A DNA stretch of 64,000 nucleotides from Panorpa germanica (lineage: Eukaryota; Arthropoda; Insecta; Mecoptera; Panorpidae): contig OY783219.1 of assembly GCA_963678705.1 (NCBI GenBank), positions 14,384,001 to 14,448,000 of the forward strand, written 5' to 3'. The notes below the pieces were generated by a model, which was not told the DNA's origin, ran no database searches, and saw nothing but the letters and a program-made list of their open reading frames with translations. This document shows, one piece after another, positions 5,643 through 47,639 of the stretch (the stretch's first letter is position 1; the number at the start of each line of letters is the position of its first letter). The position numbers and the translations under genes were made by a program.

Positions 5643-6886
5643 TTATTTCATAGCTTCATAGACCTTATCTATCCCGTTGAACCCCCTCATCCCGACTTTT
5701 GCGCCCGCTATTTGACACCCGAATATTAAACTTTCTTGTACTGATTTTTTATTTGTCAACGCGTATATAACAGACGCACAGAAAGTATCTCCGGCTCCCA
5801 GAGTATCGGTTACTAGGTCTGGAGGAAATGCTGGAGATGTCACTATTTCTCCATCGTCTTCTTGTGCTGCAGCACCAAGCTCTCCCCAAGGACAAATCAC
5901 TATTGATCTGAAATCAAAACAATATATAGTTTTACGTAATTGTAATGTAAATTTGAAATAATCACAAGTTGATACTGACTTGGGTTTTGCAAATTTTCTT
6001 ATAAAGGTTACAGGTTCCATCATCGTGTTACACCCTCTGTACTTTGCGAAATCTTTTGACACGAATACGACATCTGCTAAAGGAATGAGCTCTAGTAACT
6101 GTTGTCTTGGCTTCTCTACATCGACTGATATAATTACTCTATTGTCCTGTTGCTCCAACAAACTATTTTGTGTTGAAATGTGTTCCAGCATTTCTTTGAC
6201 AACGCTGACATTGCGATGAAAACCCTATAACAAATATTCCTTTTAATCAGTAGAACAATATTTTTAATATCCAAGATTCAAACCTCAAAGTGTATCCAGC
6301 GATAATCTGAAACTTGAATATTTTTAAAATCCTGAAATGTTAATCCTGGAAGATTAGGATTATTGTGAAGAATAGTTCGAGATCCTGTGTCTTCTGCCAG
6401 TATCACAGTCGACATCGGGGATTGACAATTCGCGTGGTGGATACAGTGTTTTGTGCTTATTCTGAATTTTTTAAGATCATCCAGAAGAAATCTCGTTTGT
6501 GCACTTCTTGGATCGCCGAAGGTACTCAGCAGCTCGCAATCGGCTCCAAGTTGAGATAAGACGCTGCAGTTGTTGGATGCATTTCCTCCTCGTTGCTAGT
6601 ACGCCTTCAATGATCTAATAAATAAAGAGTATTTATATATTCAGAGTCGGTACTACATATTTTTATAGTTTTCTTCTATTTGGCAAACTGAGTAACTTAA
6701 ATATTTTTTAACTTGTACACCATTAAATTCGAAAGACATCATATGAGACGCACGGCCCGTTACCAAGGCACTGATCTGTCATTACGTCAATTACCTTTTA
6801 TCGGAGTCTTCTGTTGGAAATGTCGCACAAACTTGAACAATATCTAAAGTACAAACACCCACGCACAATATTTTTTGTTTTACCAT
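5643..6886 (-). pseudogene. Khk: Ketohexokinase (PfkB family) with one premature stop
   Basis: Ketohexokinase phosphorylates fructose to fructose-1-phosphate in the cytosol. Four exons join in phase: 6795-6886, 6284-6614, 5980-6224 and 5643-5907, giving 310 codons plus stop, close to the usual 300 or so. The start is ATG at 6884-6886, followed by [16 protein letters not shown]. Family marks are QRGGNASN in exon 2, YRWIHFEGFHRN across exons 2-3, VICPWGELGAAA, and the PfkB signature DTLGAGDTF with its catalytic Asp in exon 4. All splice sites are GT-AG. Codon 37 is TAG (6596-6598), exactly where the family has Trp just before QRGGNASN. Everything else is intact, so this is a very young null allele, a young pseudogene, or a base error. 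Confidence 0.9.
6596..6598 (-). other. Nonsense codon in ketohexokinase
   Basis: TAG replaces the Trp codon that precedes QRGGNASN. One G-to-A change on the coding strand explains it. The frame upstream and downstream is correct, and no alternative acceptor removes the codon. Confidence 0.85.
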
Positions 6887-7637
6887 ATTGAAAGTTATTC
6901 CCTAATTTAGCTCTACGGGCCTGACTATATGAATGTCATGAAGTAAAATTATATAAAGGCTCATACATTTGATAACAGATTAAAATCGCATAAAAAGTTA
7001 ATAAAGTCAAGGTTAGAAGTTTGTATTATTTATTTACATATCACTAATACCGTGTATGGAATGTAAGAGTTACGTAATAAATGCTGTGTGGACTATTCTT
7101 AATTTAACAATATCAACTGCTTCATTGTATATTCTTGGTAATTGTTTTTATTCAAGTAAAGTCTCATATAGAAATTATTATTTTTAATTCAACATTATTA
7201 AACATATTTTTTAGTTATTTTTTAACCTAACTTTCACAGCTGGTAGGTTGAGGCGATAAACTTCATTTTACTGAGCTATGCTGACTAAACTGTATGATAG
7301 ATTTTTTAGAATTGTGTTACTTTAATCTATTACTTTTACGACAATATAAAGCAGAAGGTTCTATAGTTTTTATCACTTATTCTTTAGGAAAGTATATTAC
7401 GTCTTAGTTTTTAAAAGGTAATTATTTACTAGTACTATAGTTGATAATGCCACATTTTTAATATTGACTTTTCTTATTGATTTCATACTTCTTTACACTT
7501 ACCTAGCTTCTGTAAAACAACCATAATTTATAGGGCATTCCCAGACTTTCTAACATTAAGTAAAATAACTTAGTCTTTTTAAATAACAATTATTTTATTT
7601 GTTTAATTTAGAAAACATTTACAAACACTTAAATTTT
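6887..7637. other. Intergenic sequence between ketohexokinase and the zinc-finger gene
   Basis: AT-rich, with no gene or repeat recognised. It should contain the ketohexokinase promoter on its left side and the 3' untranslated region of the zinc-finger gene on its right, but no clear TATA box or initiator stood out. Confidence 0.5.
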
Positions 7638-9592
7638 TCACAGTATTATTTCATTACTATGCATTTTCTTTTTATGCGATGAAAAATTCGAATTCGCCGC
7701 AAAAGTTGATGGGCAATACGGGCACCGATATAAGACTTCTCCAGTGTGACTTGCAGTATGCTCCTGGAAGAAATATATTTAATTTTGTAAGATGTTTTTA
7801 TTAAAGCATTGAAATGGTCCAACTAGTTGTAGCACTTACTCTTAGTTCTCCTCTTTTCTTGAATTCCTTAGGGCACATTGTGCAAGTATATGGCTTTATA
7901 TTAGAGTGTACGTATTTTTCATGAACACGTAGTGCTCTTTTACTAGGAGATAATTTTCCGCATTGGGAACATGGGAAAGTACCCCCTCGATGGACGCTTT
8001 CAGTGTGAACCCTCAAACAACCGGAATTCTTTAACCTTTTTAAAGAAATAAAATTGAGATATCACAAAATAATTTGTGTTATAAAAAGTATAGAATTTAC
8101 CAAGCTCCGCATTGCTGACATTGCACTCGGAACAAACCATCTTCATCGTGCGTATGTCGGTGCTTTACCAAACTATCTTTAGTTTTAAAAGACTTAGCGC
8201 ATACGTCACAAATATGTTCTTTGTATTTGATATGCACAGACTTTTTGTGTGTTAATAATATTGACTTCAAACCAAATCTAAAACAAAATTGTTATCAATA
8301 TATGAAGGGTCTTACAGCAACTACAATTAGGAAGTTGTCTTAGTGTTATATTTTATAAAATGGTCACAAAGTTAGATTTCAGGTCCCACAGTATTGTAAC
8401 TATTAAAAGTGAATCGCATTTATATATTTTCTTACGCTTTTCCACATTCCTCGCAGACGTGTTTCTTTTGCTCAGGTGATAGGTGTGTTATTTTATGCTG
8501 ATGCAGATACTGCCGTCGCACAAATCGTAGGGGGCACTCTGGACATTTCAGGGGGCGCTCTTCGTTTGGAATGTGAACATCCATATGTAAAGCCAGCGTA
8601 GCTTTACCAGACAATACCTTGCCGCATATTTTACATCTACAATACAATATTACAATCTTAAATGATTAATCTACAATATACGTTTTTATTACATTTAATT
8701 AAATTAGCTGACTTATAAGCATCGGGCTGCAAATGGTTCGTGAGGTGGTACAATACGCGACATCTTCTAAAGAATTTCTTATCACAACAATTGACATATC
8801 CTGGTATTCCATGGACAAGTTTGTAATGAGATAAAATTAATCTGAATGATTGGAACCGTGGTCTCTCTGAACATAAATCGCACTCCAACTTAAAGAAGTC
8901 TCTAATTTGAGCGTCTAGCTTTTTACCGTCTTGAACTGGTTTTCCATCAACGACTATCTCTGTATCCAAAGATAAATCTTTATATTTTTTCTTCTTATTA
9001 ATTTTCTTGATTTTTAAGTTCTTTGGTATGGGTTTTATATCACAGTCAGATGTACTATAGTTATTGTCGTCGATCTCTCTTTCATCTTCAGTAACTTCTT
9101 GTAGAACTGTTTTCTCTGTTATAATTGTTTCTAATTTAAGTATATGCTCATTCTCTGCAGATTTGTTAGCAAGAAGCTTTTGATTTGACATAACTGTTTC
9201 ATAGAATGCATGAAATTTTTTGCAAATAAGTTGAAGTTGCAAATAAGAGCAGGTAAATTGTCGTATTTATTTATCTGGAATACCACAAATACTGATAACT
9301 ACCATTTTATTGAAAGGCATTTGTGCAAATATCTTTATGCTTGCGTATGTTATAAAAATAATTTAACATAGAAAGCTTAACTCATTGTAGTCACATTCAA
9401 CTAGACTAAAAGTATAAACCAAAATCAACTTGATAGCATAAATTAGTTAATTCTTGTAACTTCCCTTACCGTGAGAGCAAAATGTGTAAGTAATAAATAT
9501 TCTAAATCAATTTTCTGTGCAATTTCATTATGTACATCGATTGCAGTATTGTCAGTCAGTAGACAAAGTCTGCAAATTGTTTGTTCAACCAT
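7638..9592 (-). pseudogene. ZAD-C2H2 zinc-finger transcription factor (grauzone-like), frameshifted
   Basis: Predicted nuclear DNA-binding protein. Six exons: 9470-9592, 8713-9274, 8436-8636, 8101-8277, 7840-8035 and 7638-7763. Exon 1 opens the ZAD dimerisation domain (MVEQTICRLCLLTDN). Exon 2 completes it (DNLPALIC) and starts the fingers, with the unusual GYVNCCDKKFF finger typical of grauzone relatives. About nine further C2H2 fingers follow, ending in [10 protein letters not shown]. Splice phases agree throughout, but exon 2 is one base short: the ZAD frame and the frame of all later fingers differ by one near 9240, beside a direct repeat of TTGCAAATAAG. With that base restored the protein would be 461 residues. 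Slippage, assembly error and pseudogenisation are all possible. Confidence 0.85.
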
Positions 9593-10000: not shown

Positions 10001-13000
10001 TTAAAGATGAACAACGGTATGACAAAGTGGGCAACATTTCTTTATCGTCATTTCTTGTGGATAAGCACACCGTCGACATTTCGAGCATCTCCATACGTTA
10101 TTCGGATCCGGTGGGATCCGGTAAGGGTCTTCCGGTTGCTAGACATCCGGGAAATCGGACGCCACAGCTAGGGCAAGTGGTGCACCTATAGGATTTTTAA
10201 AGCAATTTTTTAAAAACTTGAACAAAATCTGAACGATAAAGAAAATGTATCGAATTACCAATCAGGAACCAAAGTCTCGCAACTGATGCATTCCAACGAT
10301 TTGTGCGGGAATCTTTTGGAGGATTTTTAGTAAAAATCTAAGTCTTCATATTCTTGCCTTTTAGCTTCTGTAATCTGAAGTACAAACTAAGTAAATAGGA
10401 AATCATAATATTATTAATTGATTTAATGGGTAACTGACGTGTGTAAGGCCTTCTAATTTAATGAACGCTTTTGAGCACGTTGCGAAGGATCTGTTCGCTG
10501 CACTAGTCAACGCTAAAATACAGTACAAATCCTCAACACAAAGAATGTCCTCGTATTCGCGGAGCCTCATAGCTGTCTTCATCGCGTTGTCCAGGAGTCC
10601 GCCGTACAGTTGTCTCTGTGTTAGCAGCGAGTGGAAGGCTTCTGCACCACGCCAACTAGATTCAATAACTGATATATCCTGGGGGTTTAAACCAACACCC
10701 AACATAGCCATTCCTCGAGCAGCTCCTTTAAAAATAAAGCAATTGTATTCGAGTTTCGTGAGACTCAGTTCTGGAAGCTGGAATCCTGGACCAACCTGCT
10801 CGGGGTGAATCCTTCGCGGATAAATTTAAATGGTCTTCAACTAGGAGCCCTGCAAGGACGTATAGCTTCTTCACTCTTAATGGATCGGATCGTTTTTCAG
10901 CTTCTGCGTCAGTTAACTGGAAAAACAAACTAAAATGAATAATGCTTTCAATAACAAATAGGCTTACCATATTGTATTGTACCTTCTGCATCAACCTAGC
11001 TGCATCTAGATATCTGTTGGCTTTGCGGTAAAGTTCCACAGCTTCTGTAACTTTATTATTTTCCAACAAGTGGTTTGCGTACTTCGCCATTAGTGCCCCG
11101 ATTTGCGGCATTTTGAATCGCTGCGCCAACGCTACTGCTTGATCCCATTGATTGAGACCCACACACGTGTCCACCGCTGATTTGATGTCGCCATACTTGA
11201 TGTAAGCATTTACCGCCTGAGAGCACATTCCCACCGACGCTAGCATTTGTCCAAGATTATTTAGAAAAGGGGGCTTCTATCTGGTAGTTTTGACACGCAG
11301 CCTTCCAAAGCGTCGTAATCCTCCAATGAATAATAGCATTGTATTAACTTTTCTTGATTACGCGCTTTTTCGTAATATTCTTTTGCATTTTCCCTAATAC
11401 GAAATATTTATAATTATAAATTGTTTTAGCTCTAATATGTATTGCCTTTTACCAATTTTGTCTTTCGGCGAAATAGTCCCCGATGGAGTTGAAAGCTTGT
11501 TCTACTTGAAGATCAGAGCCGCCTACTCCCATTCTCATTAACTGCAACACTCTGAACCAATCTCCCAGAGACTGACGAAGACCAATAGCTAAATCTCTGT
11601 AAAATGTTATTTATATTTTACATCACACATAGAAAAGGAAAGGGAAGTTTAGTTTTTACTACGACTACCTTCTATCAGAATCTAGATAAAGTTTTTCTGC
11701 TTCATCGAACTTTTTGAAATAAGCTGCAACTTCAGCTCTTTTTAACTGATCATTCTGGATGTTTTTAAGTTTCTTACACAATTGAATTCCTGGGTAATCC
11801 GCACACCGTACAAAAGCTGCTTCAGCTGAATCCAAGTCGAGCAATTGAACGGACGCCTCTGCCAATAAGCGCCTGAAATAAGAACGCCACAAATATTCAA
11901 ATAATCAAATGATGATACATTCATTGCGTTGTGTTTATCAGGTAAATCGTAGATGTCTTACCACAGTCTGGGGTGGGGGTTATCCTGGATAAACTGTGAC
12001 GCTTCTTTGATGCCAACTTTATTCAAAAGTTCTCTAGTATCTCGTAGACTTTTAACTTCCAAATCCAACAGTTGATCGGCACTAGGAGTCACTACTCCAG
12101 ACACAACATCATCTAACAATACGGCACGTATTTCTAAGTCCTGCGATGTTAATTTCATTTCAAAATTAAAATTACTTTTAATTTTCATTAGTTGAATTCA
12201 CACGTACCTGAAAACTACAGATGTACCCCGAGCTGGAGATAGGTTCTTCTCGATCGCTTCCCCTTAAGACGTACATCCTGGTTTTTTCCATAATGGCAAT
12301 CAGTTGTGGATTATCCGTTGCCCAACACATTGCCCAAACGTCTTTCCTTTCCATTTTAGCAATAGCGCTTGTGTCAGATCTTGTCGAGTCAAGTTTTTTA
12401 TTTATTTGAGCGCTTAGTGATTTCGTCAAAATGTTATCATCGTCCTGTTCCAATTCTATCATGGTCATCATACCGGTCACATCGATTATTGACAACCTGC
12501 TATTAAAGAACAAGGTAAAAAGATTAGTTAACAGTTGGTTTTGGTGTAGTACATTAATTTGAAAACTTACGAGGAATTGTAATTGATTGACATAATATAG
12601 GGCCTGCTGTGTCTCATATAACGATGTGTCAACGCCACCTGTGGCAAGGAATATCTTTGTAGCGCCCCTGATTCCCTTCCAAGGATCAACACAGTGTCGG
12701 TAACCGCCAAACTGCAAATAGGATCCGTTGTGGGTCCTGTACCTGTCACAGGCTCGTATGAACGATCCAGATCTTGAATAACTTCCGCCACTCCGGAAGG
12801 AGTATCATCAACATGATACTTCCGGTCTTTACGCTTTGCTGAAAATTTTTCGTCACTTCTCTATTGAATAATTTTTATAAAGTTTTCAATTTGTTCAAGG
12901 TGTAATACCTGCTACATGCATCGCAGCTCCTTTAGGAGCTCGGTACTGCCAGATTAGAAATTGTGCTCGTGAACACGCTACTACATGGGTGGAATTCATG

Positions 13001-14679
13001 GCTACCCATAGCGGCTCCAGGTCCATGTATTTAGCTGAAATTTATAATCAAATCTAAATATATTTGGTGGGAACACATTAATTTTATTTAGGGTTTTTCA
13101 TACCGTCAACTACAGTGGATATGGTATTGCATAATAAAAGTCCGTACTGGCCGGCCCCCTGATTAGCGTTGGCCGAATCCTGCTCGATGTTATCGCATCG
13201 CACCGCTAGAACGCAGTGCTCCAGGTAGCTGGCAATGCTCAATAGGGAACTCACGGTCTTGGGGTAGCACTGGGGTTAAATTGATCGTTTATTATGTATA
13301 CTTGAATAGTAGTTGTCGTGCTATAAGTCTCAAGGATATTGTTATCTAATTATTATGAAAATTTACAGCCAATTCAGTGTGTCGGTTTGGATCGTATAAG
13401 AGCACGATAACTCTTTAAAATAATATATCTTTCTTAAGGTGAAACGATACTTGGCCATTTTTGACTCGCGAATAGATGGAGACAGCAGGTTAAATATTAT
13501 CAAAAAAAACATGTTTTTTTATGTTTAAATCGTTTTATATAAGTAACTATTAACGCAAATCAAATTCTAAAGCTGCAATTAGTTAGATGAATAACGTATC
13601 TACATTTTAAGCTTTCAGTTCCACTGACTTTTAATGAGTTGGTACCGCAAATATAAGTTTTGAAAATGAATATTACTATATTTTCTAGTTAAATTTCAAT
13701 TTTCATATAACTGGTAACATTTCTAAGGGTTTGTTATAAATTTTAAAACGTTTATTATGGTTCTCAAATTTACGCTTAAGACTTAAGTCAAAATTACGCT
13801 TAAGTCATATAAAAATTGAAATTGCGTCAAAAATGGCCAAGTATCGTTTCACCTTAAGATAGATTGAATTTCTTGATAATTGAAATTCTAAATTGTGATA
13901 ATATTAAAATCAAACATATAAAGTAATCGTTTTTACATGTAGGTTCTTTTACGTAAAATTTTACCAGTAGTTCTGTAACATATATGCATGTGTTTATGCA
14001 TGTAGTCTCACCTGATGACTGACAGTGTCCCAAAAAGTAATATTGGCCCCTTCCTTAGCGGTCTGGTTCACATAAACAACTGTCTTCATAAAATAGGTCC
14101 ACTTATAATCGGGTCTGATATTAGCGAAATATATAAACGAATCAACAGCTAAAGCAATTCTCAGAGATCCGCCTTCCCAAGTACATGCCGAAATTTCACG
14201 TCCAGGCACTTTCAAAGTCCTTACATGCTATCACAAAAAAAATTACCGTAAAATAAAGATATTTAAAATATCAAGATTTTATAATCTTTGTACTTCTCCA
14301 TATGGTGTGTAAAATTGCACGATATTTCCCTCTCGCTCTCCTTCTGTTTGAATCCCTGCAATAGCGAGAATGGTACCAGTATGATTCCAGCTGCACGCCA
14401 CTGTTTGCATATCGGTGTCTATAATTACCGGATCTAAAAGAAGACAACAATATGTAAAATGGTTCCATGTAAAGATGATTCGTGCTTTGCTGAAGTATTT
14501 AGAAGGAAGTACGGTTTACTGTTATCATTCTCTCCTCGCATAATCTGCATCAGCCCGTTTTTGTAACAAATCGCCAGAGTCGGCTGGTCCACTTGTCTGG
14601 GCCCGCTGTACCACTCAATCCCTACGACTGGCGTTGGCCTACTTGAATTCTGGACGTTACATTGTACAGAAATTTTTCT
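10001..14679 (-). pseudogene. Wdr35: WDR35/IFT121, intraflagellar transport A subunit; 5' missing, several lesions
   Basis: IFT121 belongs to the IFT-A complex for retrograde ciliary transport. Fifteen exons: 14520-14679, 14294-14433, 14012-14227, 13104-13269, 12909-13034, 12571-12838, 12208-12499, 11962-12140, 11669-11872, 11453-11596, 10983-11393, 10796-10916, 10439-10725, 10259-10374 and 10001-10185. Together they are about 1,005 codons. Recognisable parts are [52 protein letters not shown], the helical repeats, WRGAEAFH, FATCSKAFIKLEGL and a C-terminal zinc-ribbon pair (CSKC...CCPLCH). The first 190 or so residues (early WD repeats) are absent upstream. Lesions: stop 11261-11263 by frameshift, stop 10327-10329 with two nearby indels, and stop 10098-10100 by frameshift. 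A piggyBac-like MITE sits in one intron. Confidence 0.92.
13434..13857. mobile_element. TTAA-flanked MITE (piggyBac-like) in a WDR35 intron
   Basis: The element 13438-13853 begins GGTGAAACGATACTTGGCCA and ends with the inverted copy of that sequence; the terminal repeats are about 28 bp and match exactly by eye. It is bounded by TTAA on both sides (13434-13437 and 13854-13857), the target of piggyBac-type elements. At 416 bp it has no coding capacity. It also contains a short internal direct repeat (CGCTTAAG...TTACGCTTAAGTC near 13770-13805). Confidence 0.88.
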
Positions 14680-14749
14680 CTAAATGAAAAAATAAGTCAA
14701 TGATGCTTACAATAAATGAATTAATAATGATGAATTTGAGCGGACAGTT

Positions 14750-14926: not shown

Positions 14927-15332
14927 TGGTTTGGGGAGTTAAGATTATAAATCGATTTCACCTTTAAATGAGAAGACGGTCGACAATAATATAAATCTTT
15001 TTAATATTAGAAACATGTGAGTTTGCTTTTCACAAAATAAATGTATAAATATATATAAAAATGAAAATACTGAATCGAAATTTACTTTTTTTTTTATTTC
15101 TCTTAGAAAACCTTTTAAGAAATAGAATACTATGATAGCATTTAGTTAATTTTTAAGCTTCAAGTGAATTAAAAATAAATAATATTATTAAAAACGAAAC
15201 TATTACAAATTTAAGCAGATTTAAGCAAATATTAAATTCTCTTTTCCTACAAAGTAACACCTCATTGCAACAGATGTACTAATAAAATGTTATGGTTATT
15301 TATAGATCTTTGCATCTTCTTCACGACATTAG

Positions 15333-15588
15333 GATGCACAAATTTCTGAAAGTGGTCAACTGCAAACATCGGTGGCATATCGATACAAAAGTCTTGATTT
15401 GAGGTAATGATTTTGTTAATTTAATTAGAATTGACGCTTATATTGTCTAATTTTAAGATGAGATGAACCAGTAATAATAATTAAACTATTTGTATTGCTT
15501 TTAGTGATTTTTTGGCAACCAAATTCTCCTTTCCTGGTAAAATAAGAACACCGGAGCAGAAGAAACAATCTATTACTGATAAGAAGAG
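15333..15588 (+). CDS. Two exon-like segments of an unknown plus-strand gene
   Basis: Segments 15333-15403 and 15505-15588 have TAG acceptors and GTAAT/GTAAG donors and join in phase. They read DAQISESGQLQTSVAYRYKS and then SDFLATKFSFPGKIRTPE and QKKQSITDKK. The product is unknown. A diverged copy of both segments lies at 15988-16167, as if the exon pair had been duplicated. Start and end of the gene are not visible. Confidence 0.35.
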
Positions 15589-15987
15589 GTAAGTCAAACA
15601 TATTTTTAAATATATTTATAACGCTTCAGTAAAGAACAGATACGTCGCGATTTTGAATATTTATTTATTTCTATTCTTGTGTACGTATTAGACTTTTTAT
15701 GACATTATCTGTTAATCTCTGCAACTGCAAAGATACATAATCTGTCTTCACATACTTGTGCATAAATCGTTGTCTAATGAAGAGCAGCTTCAGCTCATAA
15801 TAACAATTTTCTGTCTGTCTGAGGAAATTCTTCAAAATTAAGTTGCTTAAAGTTTAGTTGGAATATTCCTGGTACAATTTCAATAGAACAACAAAATAAC
15901 TGCGCAAGTTTTGATACAGAATAAAACCTGATATTAATAAAATGCTATTATTGTTTACAGTTTCTTGCATTTGGATTAACCCTCTAG

Positions 15988-17060: not shown

Positions 17061-17121
17061 GATCTACTCGTTAGCAGAACAACGTCCGCGTGGAAGTCAA
17101 ACTCTGAGCAGTAGTAGATGA
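17061..17121 (+). CDS. Exon-like terminal segment, unknown product
   Basis: After a clean TTATTTTCAG acceptor the frame reads IYSLAEQRPRGSQTLSSSR and stops at TGA (17119-17121). It could be the last exon of the unknown plus-strand gene at 15.3-16.2 kb. There is no independent support. Confidence 0.25.
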
Positions 17122-17171
17122 GAACCTGACTGATTGTGTAAGACAGATATATTTAGTTATAAAATTTATAT

Positions 17172-34802: not shown

Positions 34803-37800
34803 TATATACATATATGTACAGGGTGTCCTGTCGCCAACTACCATTTATTTACGTGCATGTTAAACACGTAATTTTATCGATAAAAATACCCACATGTGGG
34901 GAGGGTCCATTACCTCTCCTGTTGGAATGGCCACCATTTTAAATTTAGTTTTAGATGACTGCCAAAAAATATCGGCTTCTCGGAATGTAAAGGTGAAAAT
35001 TATACCACCTATCAAGTAATGAAAACATTTTGTAAACTTACAAATTAAAAAGATCATAAAGAAAATGATTTTTGCAAATTTTACTCTAAAATTTCTCTGT
35101 TTTTTTGTTTTCCTTACATACCTCAAAAAATGTCACAATTGATGTCCATTATTTTTACAATGTATGTATTGGCATACGGACATATTAATATAATATATAT
35201 TTTAATTGAGTGCATCAACTTTCAATAGTTATTTGCACTTTAAACAATATGTACGTTTTACCAACATTTTACATTACATATTTTATAATTATTTAACAAC
35301 TATCCTATAATATAATTTCGCTTTTCCATTTTATTTTAGAATAACTATAGCTTCTTCAATAACTTCATTTTTCATCTTTTAACAACAACAACAAGAACAA
35401 CAACTGCACTAGATCTGTACTTTATTGTTGTGTGTTATTTTCCATATGTCGTCCAATTGTTTACTGAAGTCTTCGAGTGCATAACTTTTTATTATATTTA
35501 TTTAATTATACCCATTTTTTTTTTGTATAACCAAACCCAGAAAATAGAATTCTAGTCTGGGGATCAAACCCGAAGACACAACAGTCTATCGCCATGCTTC
35601 AATGCTCACGGACATATTATCTACAAAACGAAACCAAAATATTGCTCTGAGTTGCATAATTCGATAGTTATTGTTGTTTGAATATCACACTTACATAATC
35701 CTAAATGCGTTTCTAATTTTTTTAAAATGGACAACATTCACGACAACAAAGAACAACTTGTAATTTAATAATTTTTAATGATACTACGTACACTTATTTC
35801 CTTAATTGAAAAATTGATCAACTCAGAGTGATGATTTTGTCAATGGTGTCGGTTTGTAGATAATATTATCTCTGTATGTCAATGGAAATTTGCTAGGAAA
35901 TCAAACTTGGGTTTATATTTTCATTTTCGCTTTGGCTATGGCTCTCCTATATTAAAAATAAGGTTCTAATTAGGATGGTGGCCTCCCCGTACCTCACCGG
36001 GTATTCAAATATAAATCCAAGTTTAACTACTTTTCTCTTTACTTATACTTTTCACAGGTCTCTTTTTAACGACTTTCTTTGCAATCTGAAAACGTTTTAA
36101 TAATTAAATATTAAAATTATCAAAACGTTTATAACTAACATAGTCAAGTATTATATTAATACATACATTCAATTATAACTTGAAACAAATTTTACTTTTG
36201 TATTTTAAATAAATTATCAGTCATGGATGAAATTTTAAAATTATTTTCTGCTCTTTAAACTATTACATCGTTAAGATGATGTTTGAAAGTTTCCAATTTG
36301 CATCTCAAATGATTATTGAACTTCTTATTTAGAACAAATATTACTGCAATTGATAAAGCATTTATATATTGCAACAATTACTTTATAATCTCCAATTTAA
36401 TTGTATAAAATTTGTTTCATTAAATTATTAGAAGAGGACTTTCTCAATAGCAGAAAGATTTATAATAAATTACAGTTCAAAATTTTGATATTTCAATAAT
36501 AAATACTTTAGACAATAATATAATAATAAGTATGCAAATTTTATTCAATACTTTTTCGATAATATTCTAAATGTATTTATTTCTTGTTGAACTATTATTT
36601 TCATCTCTTTGTTCTAAACAAACGCAGTAATTAATAGTTTCTCATCAGGTTGAGCCATTTTCCATGAGTATATAAATTATACAATATTATAAATTAATAA
36701 CCAGCACTAATATTGATATTAAGAATAATATAAATTACTATTTGAAAAGGCAAAACTCATTTAATTATGTTTACCAAGTAAAATGTTGTATAAATAGCAA
36801 ATATTTTAATAAACATGGAAAACAATTAAACTATTGTATAATCAAAATACTTAAAAAAAAGAAAACCTTTTGAAGAATACTAAACATTAAAAACTGTGTC
36901 ATATTTTATCTTGAAAGAATCCAGTTACTAATACTTTTCCAGCTTTTTCGTTTCCATTTAAACATAAATTACTCTAAATCTTCTCATAAATCTCTGACGT
37001 CTTCGTATCTCCAAGTCTGATTAATGTGATGTAAAAAACGCCATGCCATTCTTGAGTAAAAGACTTCGTGCCCAAATTACTTGATAACAATATGCTGTTG
37101 ATGAAGCAGCGATTAACTTTGATGTAGCCGCGAATATAGTAAATACTCTGATGTACCCTGGAAATATAAGAATACTACTTAGCTAATGTTTTATGTAAAA
37201 AGCATTTAATTTATTATTAGTTCATTAGTTTACCAATTTTATGCCTATGGGCATTTCTCGATATATATTATATCTATTTTTCATTTCGCCTATTTTTCAT
37301 TTTTCAGAGCGTCGCTTTGTACTACACCAAACATTTCAGGGACAAGACCTTAGAACAAAGAAAAAATTATATTATATAGAAAAAACATAACACAAATTCT
37401 TTCGGAAAATTAAATACTTGTTCCACTACTTGATAAAAGAGCTATTGTAATTTCCATAAAAATTCCGTATAAATTAAACTGTGTTAATTAATAAAGACGA
37501 GTCTAGTGAAAAAGAGATAAGAAATATCTCGATAATTTCTACTGGAATGTTTTATGCAAGTAAAACATATCATTTGCATATTTAAAAAAAATAAAAACGC
37601 CACTACATTAAAATTTATTTTAATCAAAAATTAAAAAAACGACCCCTAAAAAGAGTTCACAAACCCATTATAATATTAAAATTGTATTTAGCAAGAGGTC
37701 AAAGTCACCGATACTTAATGAAAACGAAGAGAAGCTTTGGAAACCCTAAATCTATAATAGATAAAATATTATTCAAACTGTGAACTTACTTGAAATGTAA

Positions 37801-38947
37801 TAATCCATCCATAATAGCAATGGTAACAGCGAAATGTTGTAAACAGGCATACACTTTAAAGTCCAATCTGTCAACGCCTCACAGTAGCACCTGGAGTTCG
37901 AGTAGCTGCAAGAGTTCTTGCAACTGCAACAAGAAGGACAATTTCAAATAAGAAATCCGATGGAAAATAAGAAGTTATTTGCATAATTTACTTTAAAATA
38001 TATTAAGGATTGTTTTAAAGATTATTTTACTGCGGAGAAATAATAATGATTGATGAACGAACGTTTATGTATAGCTCATTATACAATCCATTAATGAATA
38101 ATTATAGCGTATAAATGAACAGTATCAAACTCGATATAATATTACAAGAAAACATTATTAGACATAACCCTACCTCTAGTTAAACTTTTGCGATTGAAAC
38201 ATGACAGAAAATATATTTGAACACTTGCACGCTTTACGAATTTGATTTATAAATATCATAATAATCATATTACTTAATTATAGTAATTATTCAGGAAAGT
38301 GGAGCACCTCATTACATTTACATTAAAACATCGCGAGCTAGATAACGCGACCATACGGCCATTGGCGGCCATTATTTTTTACTAACATGACCACAGATTA
38401 ATGGACGCTGAAAATGATGACTACGTAAACCAAAAAGTAGTAAATTCTTTTTATCTGTAAGCTATAATCCAAAATATAATAAATACGTTAAATAATAATA
38501 ACAACTACAATAAATCTATAGTTAAAATCAATCAAAATTCTCAATATATGAGTCCATTCCCACACAACAAAGTAATAGAGTTTCTATTAGAAAAATGTTG
38601 CACTTCCGTTACAGCAACACATTTTTTCAAAATAACACCATAAAAATTTAAAATGTTTTAAATGTTATTCTTTGCTACTGAATTCGAAAATACGACACTC
38701 CGATAGCTAAAATAAAAAAAAAATTCTCAAATTTTCTCTTAGATAAAGTCAGTAAAAAAAAATTGGTTGATCTAAGTAGATAATTTGAACATTTTCTGTA
38801 AAAATATTTCTATAATAAAGAACAAAATGTAATCTTTGAGCTAATTTTTAAAACCAAGAAGTATTTGAAATACAAAGGACCCTATTTGGGTTTATATTTA
38901 GTATACAATATAAGTACAGTTTATTTTCTTAATCATGAAAGTTTATT

Positions 38948-41541
38948 CTATTCGTTTAATATATTATATTGTATATCATTTCGTTGTGGGCACCCGAACC
39001 ATTGATGCATCGATAGTTGAGGATAGCCTGTTGCAACTCGAATGTAATGATTATTAAACTTCCATACAAAAATGCCTTTAAAGAAGTAGGTCAGTCCTAA
39101 AAATATGCTCCCTGATGTTATACACTTAACTATTTAGTTCACACCACAGTTCACACTAGAATATTAGAAGATCTATTATTCTAATGTGAATGACTGTTTT
39201 TAAACGACTGATTATTATTTACCATCCTTCCACGTTACAGCAGTATCTAAATTATCTGGAATTCCTCTCCATCGTGTTATCGGCAAAGGATATTTTTCAT
39301 CCATTTGTTTAGTGCTTTCGTTGAATCGCCATATTTGATCTCCGCTATATAAATAAGTCTTTCCATTTTTCTGCCACACCTGTATTTTCAAAAATTTCTT
39401 GCATTTCACCATACACATATATATTGTTATACCTGCGCGGCATCAATCTTATCCATATTCGAGGAAAGCCCATAATCGGTGATAGGACGTGGGCTGTCGA
39501 TAAAGTCGTATCCATTATAAACCCAATATACATTTCCTGTACAAAGTTAAAATATCCAACAGTTAGTTGTGCTAATAAAACTAAAATTATGCACCAAGGC
39601 TTAAATTTTCAAAGTATATAAACCTGTAAATAATATAATGGCCCCATCAGTTGGGCGCTCATATGCTGCATCAATTTTAACTACCGATTCCGGTAGCTTC
39701 CAAAATAATTCTCGAAACAAAACTGGGTAACCCTCTTCTATAACGCCTTGTTCACGCAGACGCCAGACGTACTAAAAAAATAATATTTTAAAATAACTAG
39801 ACTATAGTTATGTATATTCATACACAAAGATATTAAAAAAAAATTATGTTTTACCTGATCCTTAAAAACAAACAACTCTTGCCTCAAAAAAGCTACAGCA
39901 TCATAGTTACCATAACAGATATCTGCAGGAGTTTGCGGTCTTGGTGGGTCTAGACCATGAGTTTTGTCATGATTCTAAAAAATGATTAGAACAAAATATT
40001 TATTTTTCTTGAAATATTTCAGGGATTTTTAGTTCTAGTCTTACTTTGTGCTCATCAACAGTTTCATCGTCGCCTACGTATGTTACAGTGGTTCGCCGGG
40101 GCACAGATGTTGGATTTTGTCTTTGTGTAGTGGACTTTGCAGTTGTAGTTGTAGTTGTAACAACATCCTCCTCGTGGTTATTTTCATTTCCTTCGGAAGA
40201 TTCGCTGTCTTCAGGTAACCGTCTCTGAACTAAATATACTTTTTATTGTTTGCTATCTCCTACAAAATCTTTCATAACCAATTCAACATGAATTTACGTT
40301 CTAATAATATGAGAACACTTACTGTATAACTCGTACATTGCTAATATATTGTTGTAGTCCAATTGAAACCCGGCTTTGGTGCCTTTGTAATAAGGAAACA
40401 TTACAGACGAAGTTATCGGAGAATGTGCTAGACCCAATGAGTGACCCAATTCATGGACGGCTACGGTGAAGAAATCAACTTCACCATACTCTATACAATA
40501 CAATATAAAATGATTAATTTCATCGTTATGTTTCAATATTGCTTCTCTGAAAAAAGTTTATCAAAATTTATTTATAAATAATAATTGTTAGTACGAGTAA
40601 ACTACCGTAATTTCTTTCGGAATTTGAGCGCCAGTTTTCATCGTTGTCAAAATGAATATCACCTCCATAGTGGCCCATTTCCAAAGGATAATAGGCATAA
40701 TGTAATGATAATAGGCTAAAATGTTGCCTTGTCAAAGGGATATCTACGAAATAAAAATACTTTCATCAAAATGATTGTGACGGTAAGTGTTATTATTTCA
40801 GAAATAATTAATAATATTTATTACGGGTCTCCGTGGTAGGAACTTCCGAATGCAATTATAATATCTGCGTTATTATCATAAACTCTTCGAAAAGAGAGGT
40901 TTCCATATCCTGCCCAAGCATCGAACGCGTTCTTCATGTCTTCTGCAATAGATTCCTCGCCAATATTTGGTGCTCAATTAGCTATACTAAAATTAAACAA
41001 AAGTGAATATATTTGCGAAGTTTACAATATGGAATAATTTGGAAAATAACTCACTAGTATGTTAGCTGTCTTTTATTCCAGCCTTCCGCACCTATTATAA
41101 ACCTTTTCTGTCTGGTTGTTTCCGGGTTACGTATATCGGAAACACCACATCGTGGTGATGCCATCAACTGCAATTTAATTGCAATTTGTTAGAACAGAAG
41201 ACTATCTGTTAGGCATTTCCTTAGAAACAAACCTTTTTGTTTAGGGTACAGGTATTTCATAGTTAGATGGCGTTACAATGGTTTAGTAATATGATTAAAC
41301 TTATTTATAACCCAAACTTATCCTGATAATAATATATCGCATAAATTAATGGAAGAGCATGTTTATAATTTTAGTATAACATACGTACTTCCAATGTAAA
41401 ATTGTCCATGACTCCTGTCTGAGGAATACCTCCAAATTTTTGCACATTTTTTATAGCTTCAATAACTGCTTCTTCCCTGTACAAAGCTTCTGCATTAGAT
41501 GGCCCGTTTTCCAAATATTCAAATTGACGCATGAATTTAAA
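38948..41541 (-). pseudogene. Matrix metalloproteinase (Mmp2-like), 3' complete, catalytic region damaged
   Basis: Secreted zinc endopeptidase acting on extracellular matrix. Exons found: 41389-41541, 41055-41167, 40825-40986, 40606-40743, 40323-40490, 40045-40229, 39855-39974, 39624-39771, 39433-39536, 39223-39379 and 38948-39096. The order is prodomain (EEAVIEAIKNVQKFGGIP), cysteine switch PRCGV, furin-like RQKR, catalytic zinc site HELGHSLGLAH with Met-turn SSVMFP, a Thr-rich hinge, then hemopexin repeats ending WFGCPQ. The signal-peptide exon was not found. Lesions: in-frame TGA 40974-40976 just after the propeptide, and exon 40606-40743, where a 20-bp tandem duplication and a small deletion shift the frame in the PFDGPGNILAHAYYP region. 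The other exons are intact. Confidence 0.9.
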
Positions 41542-43100
41542 CTATTGAAAAATAAAATAAATACATTTAATTATTTATTGTATAAGAAGAATGAATATTT
41601 TAATATCGACTTAAGTGATACTTTTCATAGGTTTTTATCATTTTATATTTGAAGTTAAGAATCGTGTCACCTCGAGGTCATAAATAAACTTATTATTCTT
41701 GTTTTTACTATTTAGAATATATAGAATACTAATAATAGATAGAATACAGCCAAATTATAATGAGCTACTTTGGCATAAATCGGTCACACACACATACCGC
41801 TTTAGGACTTGGAACATTTTGTTTCAAACTTATCGGACCACTGTTAACAATATTTATATATGTTATACTCGTTACAATTGTAAAACAAATACATCTTTTA
41901 AAGATTATCATTTTTACGATTACTTTTTAATAGTATATTTTAGATTTAAATTAAATTGAATTTTTCAAATATTTATCATACAAAAAAAGAACAAACACTT
42001 ATTTTATATTATTTTGTTAGCACTATCTCTTTATGCTTTTAGAGCACAACTGGCGGCTAAATTCTTACGTTTCTCAAAGTAAACTTTGTTAAAAAAAAGT
42101 TTCGGTTTATCCAGAGTAGTGCGAATTTTTTAAATTGCTTCAGAGAAAATCGTACAATGCTTTATTTATATTGAAGACATGTGAGTGTCAGGTACAGTCC
42201 AATGCGCAAATATTATTGAAGAATAATCACAGTTTTCATTAAACTTAGATTTTCCATAATTTTGTTTATGTTCAGATTTATTTAATATGAAAAATACGTA
42301 AAGAATTCATTTTCTAGTTTTAATTATAAATTTTGTATAATTATACAACCTCATATGCATGTTCATTAGTTTATTAGTAAGACATCTCCCAATTCTATGT
42401 TTTGAGATAAAGACGAAAGAAATCTTCAACTTTCAAGCATTATTCAACAAGTTTATTAACATAATCAAACATAATAATTTTGTTTGGTTCATAATGAGAA
42501 TATTTTAACATATATAGCTGCATATTACAGTTCATTTTAAATTTTTCAGAGATTAATATTCTGACTAATAATTGGACAATCGATGTACGAAAAAACTTGA
42601 TAAGCTAATTTCTCTGAAAATTGTGTTGAATAAGCATTATCGTGGATTATTGTGTTCTTTTTTGTATAACACAGTCTAGTAAACTAGGTTGTGTATAAAG
42701 TGTTTTTTCCTTTGTTCCAGGTAACTAATGACAGAACATCCGGCATGACCGTGACGTCATTTGTACGATTCATCAAAAGGTCATAAGATCTCATTTTTTT
42801 ATATTTAATAAAAGAAACTGAAGTAGCTGTTGGAAATTAGTAGAAGATAGTATTGCGAGATGTGTGACTAATAAACTTGATTATTTTTACAGTTTATAAT
42901 CAGTGTTATTAATTATTACTTATGAAGATTATAATTTAAACTTCTATACTAACTATATTAGTACAATAATTTGAAAACTCACCGATATTCTTTTATTCTT
43001 TTGCTGTATACGAGTATATAATCCTCTCCAAAAATTTTTTCAAATCTAAAACATTAGAGTTTTCTTTTCCTTCTTTGTTCTCGCAATTTCATGCCCTTAC
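41542..43100. other. AT-rich stretch upstream of the recognised MMP exons
   Basis: It should contain the signal-peptide exon of the metalloproteinase, but I found no minus-strand Met plus hydrophobic stretch with a good donor. No repeat was recognised. Confidence 0.45.
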
Positions 43101-43306
43101 TTCGCAGCTAGTAATTAAGATGCTATTGCTTTTCACGCAAGCCTCTGCGAGTAGTACTCTTCTCCGCTTCTTAACATCAATAGTTTTGTCATTTACGCCA
43201 TCAGCTGAGAGATCTCCGTCAATCTGACCTGGTGTACATGAGTATACTTTCTTATGATGTCCATTTCCACGATATTGATCAGCACTGAGCTCAAGCCGCC
43301 ATTTAT
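43101..43306 (-). CDS. Unidentified exon-like segment
   Basis: On the minus strand a TTTTTTAG acceptor is followed by a 206-bp open frame and a strong GTAAGG donor. It reads DKWRLELSADQYRGNGHHKK, then later VKKRRRVLLAEACVKSNS. The sequence is less AT-rich than its surroundings, which supports coding. I do not recognise it. It lies between the metalloproteinase and the divergent CFAP251 start, and could be an upstream exon of either the metalloproteinase gene or an unrelated minus-strand gene. Confidence 0.35.
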
Positions 43307-43625
43307 CTAAAAAACAATTATATAATTTAATATTAAAGCAAAAGCTACACTCTAATTACTCCAACTATTTCAATTTTACTAAATCTTATAAATGTTATAC
43401 CATTCAGAGATAATAAAGTTGTGTTATATAGTATATTAGAGTTGACTTGGTATAAATAATATAAAATTGACTTTCTGCAGTCGTCAACAGCAACCAAAAA
43501 ACAAAATGCTGTCGAGTGTATGCTGCGATTAAAGGCTTAGAAATTATATTTTTTACTAAAACTTTTAAATAGTTATTAATATAAATTTTTTGCAGTTAGA
43601 TTATATAATTTAGAAAGAAGAGACT
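43307..43625. promoter_or_regulatory. Cfap251: Probable CFAP251 5' region
   Basis: About 320 bp lie between a minus-strand exon-like segment and the CFAP251 start codon. If that segment is real, the interval may act in both directions. No clear TATA box or RFX-like X-box was made out by eye. Confidence 0.3.
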
Positions 43626-46600
43626 ATGGGTTCAGTAGATACTTTTTCTGAAAGTACAGTTTCGTCCCTCACCTCTTGCGAAAAACGTTATCAAATGTAA
43701 GAAATTTATAATTTATAATTTTAAATGAAATACATAATTAAAAAAAAAACTCTGTCTTGTTCTCTATACTACAGAGAAAGTGATGCTAAAAAAATATCAA
43801 CAACAGAAAAACCAGAGCCAGAACAAGCTTCTACAAGTAAATCTAAAAATGATGAAGATGCACCTAAACTGACACCATTTGTAAGTAGTTTTTAATTAAG
43901 AAATGTAAGTTAATCGTATATTATTCATTTTAATTTAAACAAACATTTGCAGTATTTAGAATGGTCATTTGGGCAAAATACAACCATTCCATTAATTAAC
44001 TTAACTGCTAGAAACGAAAAGAAAATTTTCTATGCAACTGCTCATGCTGGAATGATATATGATTGCGATGAATGCACGATGAAGTCAATGCAAGGGCATG
44101 TATGTTAAATGAAATATACTTTAAAATCAAATAAGAAGGTCATGTTGTCATGTTCGATGCATTAATATGTTAGACAAACGCAATCGTGAGTTGTGTGGCC
44201 GAAGCATCAGGTCGTTGGGTTGTTACAACTGACCGGGGGCCTGACAATACAGTCGTTGTATGGGACACAAAGACCTATGTACCAGTGAGGACTTTATTTA
44301 ATCCGCATCCAGAGTACGGTATGAATGCAATTGGAATAAGCCAGGATGCCAAATATATTGTTTCAGTGGGGGCAGAACAGAAACCAGAAGTCAAAATTTG
44401 GCTGTGGACTTTCGGAAAAGAAGAACCAAACGGTTGGAACACTTAAACCTGGTATTTGCTAATTATAAAAAAGTTTACCAACATATTTTCCAGATGTAAA
44501 AGAAATGGATGAGAAAGGATGGCGACCGAAATCTGTTTGCTTCAGTCCTGACAAAACCGAATTTTTTATGATAACTCAGGACCGTGGAGTTGTTTTTGGC
44601 ACTTGGGTGAATAGTATGCTAGCAAAAAATTATTTTCTATGAATTATAACAATAATTAATATTAATTTATTATTGTTAGGCGGATCAACAATTAACAATT
44701 GTACGTCCCGCACCTTTTTGGAAACCTAAACACGGTCATCTACTTGCATCAACATATGTAGGAGGTAGCAGTTGGGTTGTTTCCGTTACTGCAAACGGAT
44801 GTGCTTTAATATTTGGGAATTCGGTAAAAAAAAGGAAATACTTACATAATATAAAACGTTACTATTCACAAGATACGGAAGATATTATTAATATCAATGT
44901 AAATTTAGGTTCTAGATAGTGATCCCAAAATCACAAATGAAAAATCATGTATTAAAATAATAAAACTACAACCTTGTGCGATTACTTCGATTGTTAATAT
45001 AGATGAGTAAGTCCACATACACACAAATCAAATGAATACGTACAGCACAATCGAATCGAATAATAAATTCTATATTTGCGTTTAGTGTGGTGGTTACTGG
45101 AAACGATCTGGGGCATATTAGATTCTACGATAAATATTTAAAAATAATGTATTGGTGTCAAACTTTTGATCTGGATCCAATAGCATCAATTAGTTTTAAT
45201 TTACATAACAGGAAATACATTGTTAAGGATCCTCTTAAATTTTCAGGTACATTACTTAATACTTCGTTACTATAAAAAGAATAACTCTTTAATAAGTAAA
45301 TATTTTTTCTTATAATAGATGCTTCAACTTGGCTAACTACTTCGCCCAAGTCACCACTATCCCCAATTTCTCAAAACGAAGAGAAATTAATAGATGAGGA
45401 ATCGGAAACGTCTTATGAAGACGATATAGATGATCGTTCAACAGAATATGAACAAATATTCGATATAGCGATTCCTTCCGATGCTACAATTCAACATAAA
45501 AAATTCATTGTTCGAGATTTCATTATCAGTATTTTCATTTGTAATTTGTAACTAGAAGTGATATTCATTTTTAATGTATAATAACATTTAAAATTGTATT
45601 GTTTTAGTGACAAAAACTGGTCGAATTGGATTAATAGACTTTTTAGCCAATAAATGTGAATTTGTACTTTTAAAATGTCAAGCCCATGTAACTGCATTAG
45701 AATTGCACCCCGAAAAGTAAGTAGAGAAATGAAATAGTTAGTAAAAGAAAAATGATAGAAAAAAACCTAAATTTCTAATCAACTCACCCCCTTTTTCTCA
45801 ATAACCAGATCATTTGTGGTGTATGGAAATCTTCTAGGAGAGTTAATGAATGTAGACTTCATAACTCATCGATTAATCGCAAATGTAGAGCTTCCGAGGC
45901 AACTGGTTAAAACTGGAAGTGAATTTGACCTGGGGGCTCAGAATGAAGAAGCAGTTCTTGCAAGAGTGCCTGTATCATACATCAAATATGCACCAATGGG
46001 TTTGTGTGACTTAACATTCTAAAAATAACGAAAATTTGTTATAATTAATTATACACTAACTAAATAAATTAAACCTTTTAAAAAACTAATTTTCATTACT
46101 TTGGAAATCACAGGTATCCACTTAGCATGTGGTCTTCAGAATGGAGGACTTTGGCTAGTGGAACCAACACTGTTAACACCTGTCGGCGAAGATGACGAAC
46201 CGGAACGTCACACATCATTCAAAATAACGGAAATTGCATTCTCATATGATTCTAAATACATGGCAACTGCAGTAAATAAAAATAATTTGTTTTTCAATAT
46301 TTATTATGTAATTATTCATCGTACGTACCTTCTGATTAACTGTTATTTTTCAGGATGAAGGTTACACAGTTTGTTTATATATTTACAACAGTGGCACGGG
46401 CTACAACTTCTCAGGAAAATATAGAACACATTATGGGGAAATAGTAAAAATGTTTTTCGGAGCTTCACGTCCTGACACACCGTATCCCCGAATGTTAACC
46501 GTTGGTCAAGATAGGTAACAACAAAAATTGTTCAATTAGATAATGTCCTTGACTTTTACATACTTTGATGGAATGAGTTATGAGCTTTACAAATGACGTC

Positions 46601-47639
46601 TTCTTATATAGAATGCTTGTTGAATACGCACTTGGAGACCCAGTGGACGTGAAATCCATAGAACGAATAGAACAGAGTGCCATACCAACAGCAGCTGCAT
46701 GGTACACTGGACCAAATGATAATATGATCATTACTGCTGTAGACACCTACAAATATAAATTAATAAATGATAGCACCGGTATGACAATGTCAACAATGTT
46801 AGGACCAACTTTTGGTGGACACATTAAACATATGCTGGTATAGATTAACAACTTAATTCATTTTAAAAATAATATTTAAATTATGTTTTACTATTTAATT
46901 CGCATGACATAGATGCTAAACGATAAAGAGGATGATTCTGCAAAATACATGATATTTGCTACAAATAAACAAATTGGTATACAAATGATACCTGCAGATG
47001 GTAATCCATACAAAAATGTTGGAATGGTTGGTCACCCCACACTGGTAATTTAAAATAACAAATTAATATTACGAAAGTAAAAATTACCTATTACTTGAAC
47101 TTTTTCATTTTACATTTGTTATAGCTGACGCACATGTGTGTTACTCACGATGGTTCATATTTATTTACAATAGGAGAGAATGATAGTAGTGTATTGATGT
47201 GGCAAATAAATACGAGGTAACGAGATACATATCATATTAGTAACCTACCGTTAAAATACATTTCGACATTTGAAACAAACTACCATTTCTACCACGACTA
47301 CCACCTGTTACTTTATAACACATCACAATTTTTTTAAATTATAATATAATAAATAAACAAAGAGAAAATAAATATTAACTTAATTTCAGAGCTGCAGATG
47401 TAATGCATAAATTAGGGGGTGAAAATTTGAAACCATTTTTTTGTCTTCTTGAAGGAGGAGAACAAGGATGGCTTTATAGAGAAATGCAAGATATGTTTTA
47501 CTATACCCAAATATTGTTGCAAGGACAAAATAGTGATGAACCTCGTCAGGTTTCGCATCAGATACCATTATCTGAAATTGCCGATCTTATGAGAGCTGTT
47601 GGTTTCTATCCAACTGATTATGACTTTTATACGTCATAG
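43626..47639 (+). CDS. Cfap251: CFAP251 (WDR66), cilia- and flagella-associated WD40 protein, intact
   Basis: CFAP251 is a calmodulin- and spoke-associated complex protein at the base of axonemal radial spoke 3, needed for sperm motility. Seventeen exons join without a stop into 875 codons: 43626-43696, 43775-43880, 43953-44099, 44174-44432, 44494-44606, 44680-44823, 44909-45006, 45086-45246, 45319-45528, 45608-45716, 45809-45999, 46114-46271, 46354-46514, 46612-46837, 46913-47044, 47125-47216 and 47390-47639. ATG 43626 has an in-frame TAG 15 bases upstream. Family marks: YLEWSFGQNTTIPLINL, RWVVTTDRGPDNTVVVWDTK, WD repeats with an acidic linker in exon 9, and the C-terminal EF-hand-like part (LKPFFCLLEGGEQGWLYREM, LMRAVGFYPTDY). 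The long Glu-rich N-terminus of vertebrate CFAP251 is absent. All splice sites are GT-AG. Confidence 0.95.

Follow-up and report, generated by a model that had tools for sequence, protein, structure and literature searches.

Intron-bearing gene copies that decay while a sperm gene seems to be spared are familiar from degenerate Y and neo-Y chromosomes, and the original prediction for the scorpionfly DNA analyzed here (64,000 nucleotides from Panorpa germanica, referred to as the window) was a duplicated or non-recombining segment of this type, in which only a sperm-flagellum gene, CFAP251, stays under selection. The segment differs from a degenerate Y or neo-Y in being autosomal, in occurring at many chromosome ends and in having a truncated sperm gene. 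In human subtelomeric duplicons, as in the window, patchwork blocks are common to chromosome ends and divergence varies by block (PMC2323237); the scorpionfly, however, is an insect in which (TTAGG)n was absent from the scaffold ends examined (24 of 42), the sources of its copies are identifiable as interior or near-end genes, and its blocks lie at one end per autosome (14 autosomes seen). The subtelomeric segmental duplication of Plasmodium falciparum likewise involves a conserved segment copied among ends (PMC2279139), although in another organism, whereas the genes that decay in the scorpionfly are housekeeping and ciliary ones. Subtelomeric plasticity in Schistosoma mansoni also involves copies of genes at the chromosome ends of an animal, there tied to gene family expansion (PMC10900676); any function of the scorpionfly copies would be putative. 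Chromosome-end duplicons are a known kind of structure; in the literature searched, we found no account of them in scorpionflies, nor any work joining P. germanica with subtelomeres.

The window (C16:14384001-14448000 of 14495396; chromosome scaffolds are called C1, C2 and so on) lies on chromosome 16, 47-111 kb short of the right scaffold end, and contains no N bases. It is a mosaic of intron-bearing gene copies from chromosomes 1, 4 and 2, joined to repeats common to many scaffold ends (Table 1): chromosome 1 is the donor of ketohexokinase, a ZAD zinc finger and WDR35, chromosome 4 of Domino, and chromosome 2 of a metalloproteinase and CFAP251. The part of the original prediction that saw a duplicated segment is borne out by these source loci (on C1, on C4 from ~9.68 Mb and at C2:28.78-28.79 Mb), and the genome search that it proposed for second copies of Domino, WDR35 and ketohexokinase did recover them. 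Source copies have open reading frames wherever they were compared, and the window copies are broken, save CFAP251. Stops or frameshifts had been noticed in ketohexokinase, the ZAD gene, WDR35, Domino and the metalloproteinase; disabling lesions were confirmed in each of these genes against the source copy in the same genome, and the earlier figure of about a dozen lesions agrees with our count of 12 disabling ones. An origin as processed pseudogenes (retrocopies) was rejected because introns are kept in the ketohexokinase/ZAD, Domino, metalloproteinase and CFAP251 copies. Rescue of the W-to-stop codons by A-to-I editing was also rejected, since the source copies plainly read W.

Table 1. Features of the window (positions are those of the window)
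Feature	Positions	Strand	Basis and remarks
Chromosome 1 segment	5600..14739		DNA search and alignments; ~94% identical to C1:30341822-30350998
Ketohexokinase copy, 4 exons	5643..6886	-	Pfam PfkB match and comparison with C1
ZAD-type zinc finger copy, 6 exons	7638..9592	-	Comparison with C1
WDR35 (IFT121) copy, 5' end cut off	10001..14739	-	Pfam and PDB matches, comparison with C1
Multi-copy chromosome-end segment, including putative WDR92 first exon (17447-17800, - strand)	15268..18458		DNA searches
Domino (SNF2 family) copy	19690..29745	+	~95% identical to C4:9682772-9692907; ends at 29745
Left arm: inverted copy of chromosome 2 piece seen at 37089-38556	29745..31216	-	DNA comparison; 98.8% to C2
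Chromosome 2 segment, holding metalloproteinase and CFAP251	34161..47623	+	~97-98% identical to C2:28.780-28.793 Mb; left limit is the edge of the source locus compared, and the true limit may be further left
Matrix-metalloproteinase-like copy, 11 exons modelled	39223..41911	-	Comparison with chromosome 2 source and four copies
CFAP251 copy, 17 exons, 875 codons, 3' end cut off	43626..47639	+	Gene model, protein matches, chromosome 2 comparison
Junction	47621..47623		Chromosome 2 homology stops at 47623 and common chromosome-end block starts at 47621; 3-bp overlap
Common chromosome-end block	47621..57600	+	95-100% identical near scaffold ends of chromosomes 3, 7, 8, 11, 12, 13, 15 and X; unplaced C123; C18 at 1.13 Mb

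The pieces diverge from their sources to different degrees, by 5.7% for chromosome 1 and ~1% for chromosome 2 (both outside modelled exons) and by 2.6% for Domino (over 5.3 kb aligned). Within the chromosome 1 piece, ketohexokinase has one nonsense codon (codon 37, TGG in the source and TAG in the window copy). The zinc finger gene, which we take to be of the ZAD type in line with the earlier naming (a Pfam scan of one of its exons gave no match), has a 4-bp frameshift deletion plus 6 bp in frame relative to a source that is open over 464 codons. WDR35 had been described as truncated, and its 5' end is indeed cut, with homology extending to 14739. In the 12 exons compared (13257-10001), over which the source is open, the reading frame is shifted by insertions of 2 bp and 10 bp and by deletions of 8 bp and 1 bp, besides a change of 3 bp in frame, and the 10-bp insertion is also found on C13. 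Some of the lesions, including one in WDR35, alter length within or beside short homopolymers. A gttggt intron is present in WDR35, and a candidate break near 10.8-10.7 kb was rejected as being an unusual intron that is present in the open source copy too.

Over the 7 exons compared, out of 10 intended, the Domino copy has two nonsense codons and a 20-bp (1 + 19) deletion relative to its source, as well as an apparent 83-bp length difference. Its TAA stop is also found on C8, and its 831-bp tail (28915-29745) occurs at 17 further places, all of these fragments likewise ending at 29745. The metalloproteinase, presumably of the matrix-metalloproteinase family on the basis of a motif, shows three lesions relative to its source over 11 exons: W131 has become a stop, a splice donor is damaged, and a deletion of 4 bp is accompanied by an insertion of 14 bp. 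It is open on chromosome 2 and broken in all five chromosome-end copies, and the 4-bp/14-bp change is also present on C2b, the chromosome-end copy on chromosome 2 that is separate from the chromosome 2 source.

CFAP251 had been regarded as intact, and its 17 exons are open over 875 codons, with all 16 introns GT-AG as modelled; a frameshift hidden in exon 4 was rejected, since the weak gttgga donor is identical on chromosome 2 and the exon has no indel difference there. However, the chromosome 2 source has three more exons, which are absent from the window past 47623, where chromosome 2 homology stops, and the last codons and stop of the window copy are supplied by the joined chromosome-end block. 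The window protein matches CFAP251 to about residue 870 and the C-terminal part of the full-length protein is absent, while the source product aligns past the cut to all six chains among the matches listed (five named CFAP251 or FAP251 and one deposited as adenylate kinase 7). The window copy is a truncated relative. Six CFAP251 loci were identified on five chromosomes (C2 twice, C3, C6, C13 and C16), and the last three exons are absent in all five chromosome-end copies. Four of these five also have a further frameshift, stop or changed splice donor, the C16 copy of the window, which can be told from the others at 45237, being the exception: those on C3 and C6 have in common a 1-bp deletion and a stop, with frames ending at codon 777 of ~869, that on C13 has a 5-bp deletion, with its frame ending at codon 838 of ~869, and in C2b the modelled donor of exon 4 has A in place of G.

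Near-identical copies of the window's blocks were found on several non-homologous chromosomes, concentrated near scaffold ends. Among the chromosome matches listed (at least 95% identity and at least 400 bp), 61 of 67 were no more than 350 kb from a scaffold end, zones that make up 3.4% of chromosome length, and the other six were 0.7-1.7 Mb from an end; these 67 are the best-scoring candidates only, and they cluster. Among the matches listed, 14 autosomes had the same blocks close to one of their ends and X had them close to both, and copies were also present on unplaced scaffolds (C100, C123, C203, C221 and C239). The junctions recur as well: both 29745 and 47621-47623 are found on other scaffolds, and on X, C8, C11, C12, C7 and C123 block homology begins at 47621, where chromosome 2 homology ends. 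At the end of C13 the block runs on to window position 63488. Terminal stretches of 1.2-3 kb from 24 of the 42 scaffold ends held no TTAGG or TCAGG tandem arrays, three of them having a satellite (372 bp), and in view of the fact that no telomere repeat was found the scaffold ends are not proven to be chromosome ends. Misjoins are conceivable for near-identical blocks that exceed the length of the reads from which the assembly was made, 12-20 kb (PMC11464959).

An alternative to passive decay is that the truncated CFAP251, having multiplied at chromosome ends, has or once had a function, for example in sperm, and that selection keeps the window copy open amid its decaying neighbours. The open frame of 875 codons favors this, as does the late end of the frames in the damaged C3, C6 and C13 copies, and the substitutions point the same way: relative to the source, nonsynonymous to synonymous differences are 5:10 in CFAP251 and 12:2 in the adjacent metalloproteinase (Fisher p 0.008), which is at a similar distance from its source. 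Among CFAP251 differences 3 of 13 fixed ones (p 3e-5 against neutrality) and 4 of 9 variable ones (p 0.026) are nonsynonymous, so that these differences arose mostly under constraint. However, the ratio is likewise low (0.04) in WDR35, a dead copy, and a low ratio is therefore no proof of present function. The fixed differences are uneven (28 in 43.5-45.6 kb and one in 45.6-47.7 kb), on which basis we attribute the constraint signal to allelic divergence before copying, although this is not proven. The expectation of about three chance lesions in CFAP251 becomes ~0.6 without selection when the chromosome 1 piece is scaled to the distance of CFAP251 from its source, and ~5 at the metalloproteinase's own rate (3 in 1,552 coding bp; hand arithmetic); by length, the chance of all three lesions landing in the metalloproteinase is ~0.05 (hand arithmetic). 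Since these yardsticks disagree, some doubt on the absence of selection remains. Against a function are the loss from all five copies of the last three exons, which include a conserved region, the further disabling changes in four of them, and their recent coalescence in the CFAP251 part. Non-coding differences among the five copies are 0.04-0.26% there, whereas in the metalloproteinase part next to it they reach 0.9% (0.7-0.9% between C16 plus C2b and C3 plus C6 plus C13), which makes the CFAP251 part the most recently shared. It is no closer to the source (0.9-1.1% non-coding, versus 0.8-1.0% for the metalloproteinase part), only the distance between copies being smaller, and one four-gamete site pair was seen among the five copies, in keeping with a mosaic. 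On balance we consider a functional CFAP251 here distinctly unlikely, and there is little support for the claim that it alone stays under selection.

The remaining explanations concern where the DNA comes from and whether it was read correctly. PacBio DNA came from the abdomen of a male, a body part that can contribute germline, Hi-C was from the head and thorax of another male (PMC11464959), and copies of the blocks are present on unplaced scaffolds, all of which would suit the wrong scaffolding of a Y, B or germline-restricted chromosome. Conversely, the scaffold is an autosome in an assembly (ijPanGerm4.1) with 20 autosomes, X and no Y (PMC11464959), the same blocks are near the ends of 14 autosomes and both ends of X, and the window is without N and has junctions that recur in other scaffolds, so that this origin is very improbable. 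The original prediction had also held assembly error to be a real alternative for the stops and frameshifts. The homopolymer setting of some lesions would fit such errors, but with a QV of 59.9 from HiFi reads (PMC11464959), clean source copies within the same assembly, and lesions common to separate scaffolds (the WDR35 10-bp insertion, the Domino TAA and the metalloproteinase 4-bp/14-bp change), we regard assembly error as very unlikely.

Thus, the window is very probably a patchwork of chromosome-end duplicons. We infer that unrelated sequence was copied or joined in to repair breaks near chromosome ends, as suggested by junction overlaps of 1-3 bp. The resulting composite would then have spread, with ectopic recombination or gene conversion between ends overwriting it piece by piece. 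On this view the genes are passengers that decay over time, with CFAP251 a 3'-truncated passenger that looks intact because its part was shared most recently among copies. More doubtfully, scorpionfly ends, at which TTAGG was not found, might be maintained or renewed via recombination between shared end blocks, the gene-bearing duplicons and end satellite being substrate or by-product of this process.

These results indicate that scorpionfly chromosome ends have large gene-bearing blocks in common, with captured gene pieces from elsewhere, and the decaying copies of different ages make exchange between ends measurable. They are also a warning that chromosome-level insect assemblies hold near-intact end copies that can pass for sex-linked genes or for functional genes that have been amplified. 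According to a review, TTAGG is not evidenced in the scorpionfly order and an alternative motif was not detected either (PMC9693754), and our findings raise the testable question of how chromosome ends are maintained in such an order.

The window is very probably a patchwork of chromosome-end duplicons. The copies in it retain their introns and come from several sources, their junctions are shared with copies elsewhere, they lie near a scaffold end, and their divergence is mosaic.

Features of the window and their matches in the same genome
Feature	Window position	Source or other copies	Identity
hAT-type transposase dimerisation region	1946-2638
Chromosome 1 piece	5600-14739	C1:30341822-30350998	94% (DNA match)
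WDR35 copy	10001-13257
Segment with putative WDR92 first exon	15268-18458	near many scaffold ends
Chromosome 4 piece (Domino), stops at 29745	19690-29745	C4:9682772-9692907	95%
Domino tail, 831 bp	28915-29745	17 further places among the matches listed	98-100%
Inverted copy of chromosome 2 piece (1.47-kb inverted repeat)	29745-31216	37089-38556 of the window	96%
Second inverted repeat	33937-34318	34866-35242 of the window	94%
Chromosome 2 piece	34161-47623	C2:28.780-28.793 Mb	97-98%
Metalloproteinase-like copy	39223-41911 (-)
CFAP251 copy	43626-47639	gene from C2:28789037
Common chromosome-end block	from 47621 on	chromosomes 3, 7, 8, 11, 12, 13, 15, X; unplaced scaffold C123; C18, 1.13 Mb	95-100%
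C2H2 zinc-finger exon, within common block	52112-52384

The match to the common block begins at exactly its first window position on X, on chromosomes 7, 8, 11 and 12 and on C123, and homology to chromosome 2 stops two bases further on. Every further match to the Domino tail likewise ends where the chromosome 4 piece stops, 12 of them on chromosomes (including C16 again, at 14449328) and five on unplaced scaffolds, with one starting 17 bp shorter; no other gene piece that we saw in the window was copied as often. Directly abutting Domino is inverted chromosome 2 DNA, which forms the left arm of the outer inverted repeat, and the second inverted repeat is nested within that pair. The transposase region scored below its family cut-off. 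The zinc-finger exon, presumably KLF-like, has a normal splice donor, and the copy on C18 may be its source.

A Y-like, B or germline-restricted segment had originally been suspected. The scaffold is autosome 16 (C16; 14,495,396 bp), the right end of which is 47-111 kb from the window (C16:14384001-14448000), and the longest scaffold of the assembly measures 47,989,005 bp. As described in the genome report, ijPanGerm4.1 derives from a male specimen (HiFi 52-fold, QV 59.9), with a chromosome set of 20 autosomes and X (PMC11464959); C21 is X. The location of copies was assessed from 67 matches, comprising chromosome matches of at least 95% identity and at least 400 bp together with the six CFAP251 loci (window and chromosome 2 source included); lower-identity matches, short matches and unplaced scaffolds were left out, as was the chromosome 1 source (<95%), and the chromosome 4 source was not among them. 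Among the matches listed, which are the best-scoring candidates, cluster and are not independent, 61 lay no more than 350 kb from a scaffold end, a zone making up 3.4% of chromosome length. The six others, on C2, C17 and C18, lay further in, at 0.7-1.7 Mb. On 14 autosomes the near-end matches listed occupied a single end, and on X both ends. Panorpidae and Bittacidae most often show AT-rich heterochromatin at one bivalent end (PMC7416072), and the duplicon-bearing end may be that heterochromatic end.

Lesions in the neighbouring genes, originally put at about a dozen, proved real when scored against source copies within the same genome; we counted 12 that are disabling, and the search for paralogues located ketohexokinase and WDR35 on chromosome 1 and Domino on chromosome 4. 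The ketohexokinase copy has TAG where its open source has TGG, and the ZAD zinc finger has 4-bp and 6-bp deletions relative to an open source of 464 codons. Across the 12 exons compared, which follow the 5' exons and in which the source is open, the WDR35 copy has insertions of 2 and 10 bp and deletions of 8, 1 and 3 bp. In seven of the ten intended exons, Domino has a 20-bp deletion and two nonsense codons, besides an 83-bp length difference. The metalloproteinase copy has a stop at W131, a 4-bp deletion with a 14-bp insertion, and a damaged donor.

CFAP251, originally described as intact, does have an open frame of 875 codons across 17 exons (16 of 16 introns GT-AG as modelled), but it is truncated: the chromosome 2 gene has three more exons beyond the junction, and the last codons of the window copy are supplied by the joined block. 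The window product matches six PDB chains up to residue 869-872; five of them bear the name CFAP251 or FAP251, and the sixth was deposited as adenylate kinase 7. With the three extra exons joined, the product aligns beyond the cut to all six. Besides this source (C2a) there are five chromosome-end copies, four of them further damaged: those on C3 and C6 have a 1-bp deletion and a stop in common, that on C13 has a 5-bp deletion, and in the second chromosome 2 copy (C2b) A replaces G of the modelled exon-4 donor. The window copy is the only one without a lesion besides truncation.

That the truncated copy is functional, or once worked for a time, is improbable, although several comparisons favour it. 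Had CFAP251 decayed as fast as the metalloproteinase (3 lesions per 1,552 coding bp), it should carry about five lesions, and by length all three would land in the metalloproteinase with a probability of ~0.05 (both hand arithmetic); at the chromosome 1 lesion rate, 0.58 would be expected, with a 0.56 chance of none. Non-coding distance to the source is alike for the two parts (0.9-1.1% for CFAP251, 0.8-1.0% for the metalloproteinase), only the between-copy distance being smaller. Window CFAP251 differs from its source by 10 synonymous and five nonsynonymous changes, against two and 12 in the metalloproteinase (Fisher p 0.008), and nonsynonymous changes make up 3 of 13 fixed (p 3e-5) and 4 of 9 variable differences when set against neutral expectation. 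This synonymous bias indicates that constraint acted while most differences arose. However, the clearly dead WDR35 copy also has a low dN/dS of 0.04 (52 synonymous and eight nonsynonymous differences, despite four frameshifts), as though its death were recent or its origin a diverged allele, and a low ratio here is thus no proof of present function. Moreover, since the stretch at 43.5-45.6 kb holds 28 fixed differences and that at 45.6-47.7 kb one, we think that most CFAP251 differences are allelic and predate the copying.

In the duplicon patchwork, the pieces differ in divergence from their sources: 5.7% outside exons for chromosome 1, ~1% outside exons for chromosome 2, and 2.6% for Domino over 5.3 kb aligned. 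In non-coding DNA, the chromosome-end copies of the metalloproteinase part form two groups 0.7-0.9% apart, whereas all five copies of the CFAP251 part are within 0.04-0.26%. Sharing or overwriting between ends is thus more recent in the latter part, which would explain why CFAP251 looks intact. The five copies contain one four-gamete pair, and with C2a included there are seven (the first among them); these fit exchange, though recurrent mutation is also possible, as is misassembly of blocks that exceed the read length. Broken ends would have been repaired by joining or copying (overlaps are 1-3 bp at two junctions), with subsequent spread via ectopic recombination or gene conversion and then decay of the copies. 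Duplicons of this kind are known and the mechanism is ordinary; in the literature searched, we found no earlier description of a scorpionfly chromosome-end duplicon.

TTAGG or TCAGG tandems were absent from all 24 terminal stretches (1.2-3 kb each; 24 of 42 scaffold ends), and according to a review there is no evidence of TTAGG in Mecoptera, nor has another motif been detected in its place (PMC9693754). Three of the 24 ends, the left of C6 (1-3000), the right of C1 (30636172-30639171) and the left of C2 (1-1200), have a satellite that alternates between a ~186/372-bp unit and a 46-bp array and runs outward in one orientation at all three (in part only on C2). In Mecoptera, for which no end repeat is known, this satellite is a candidate.
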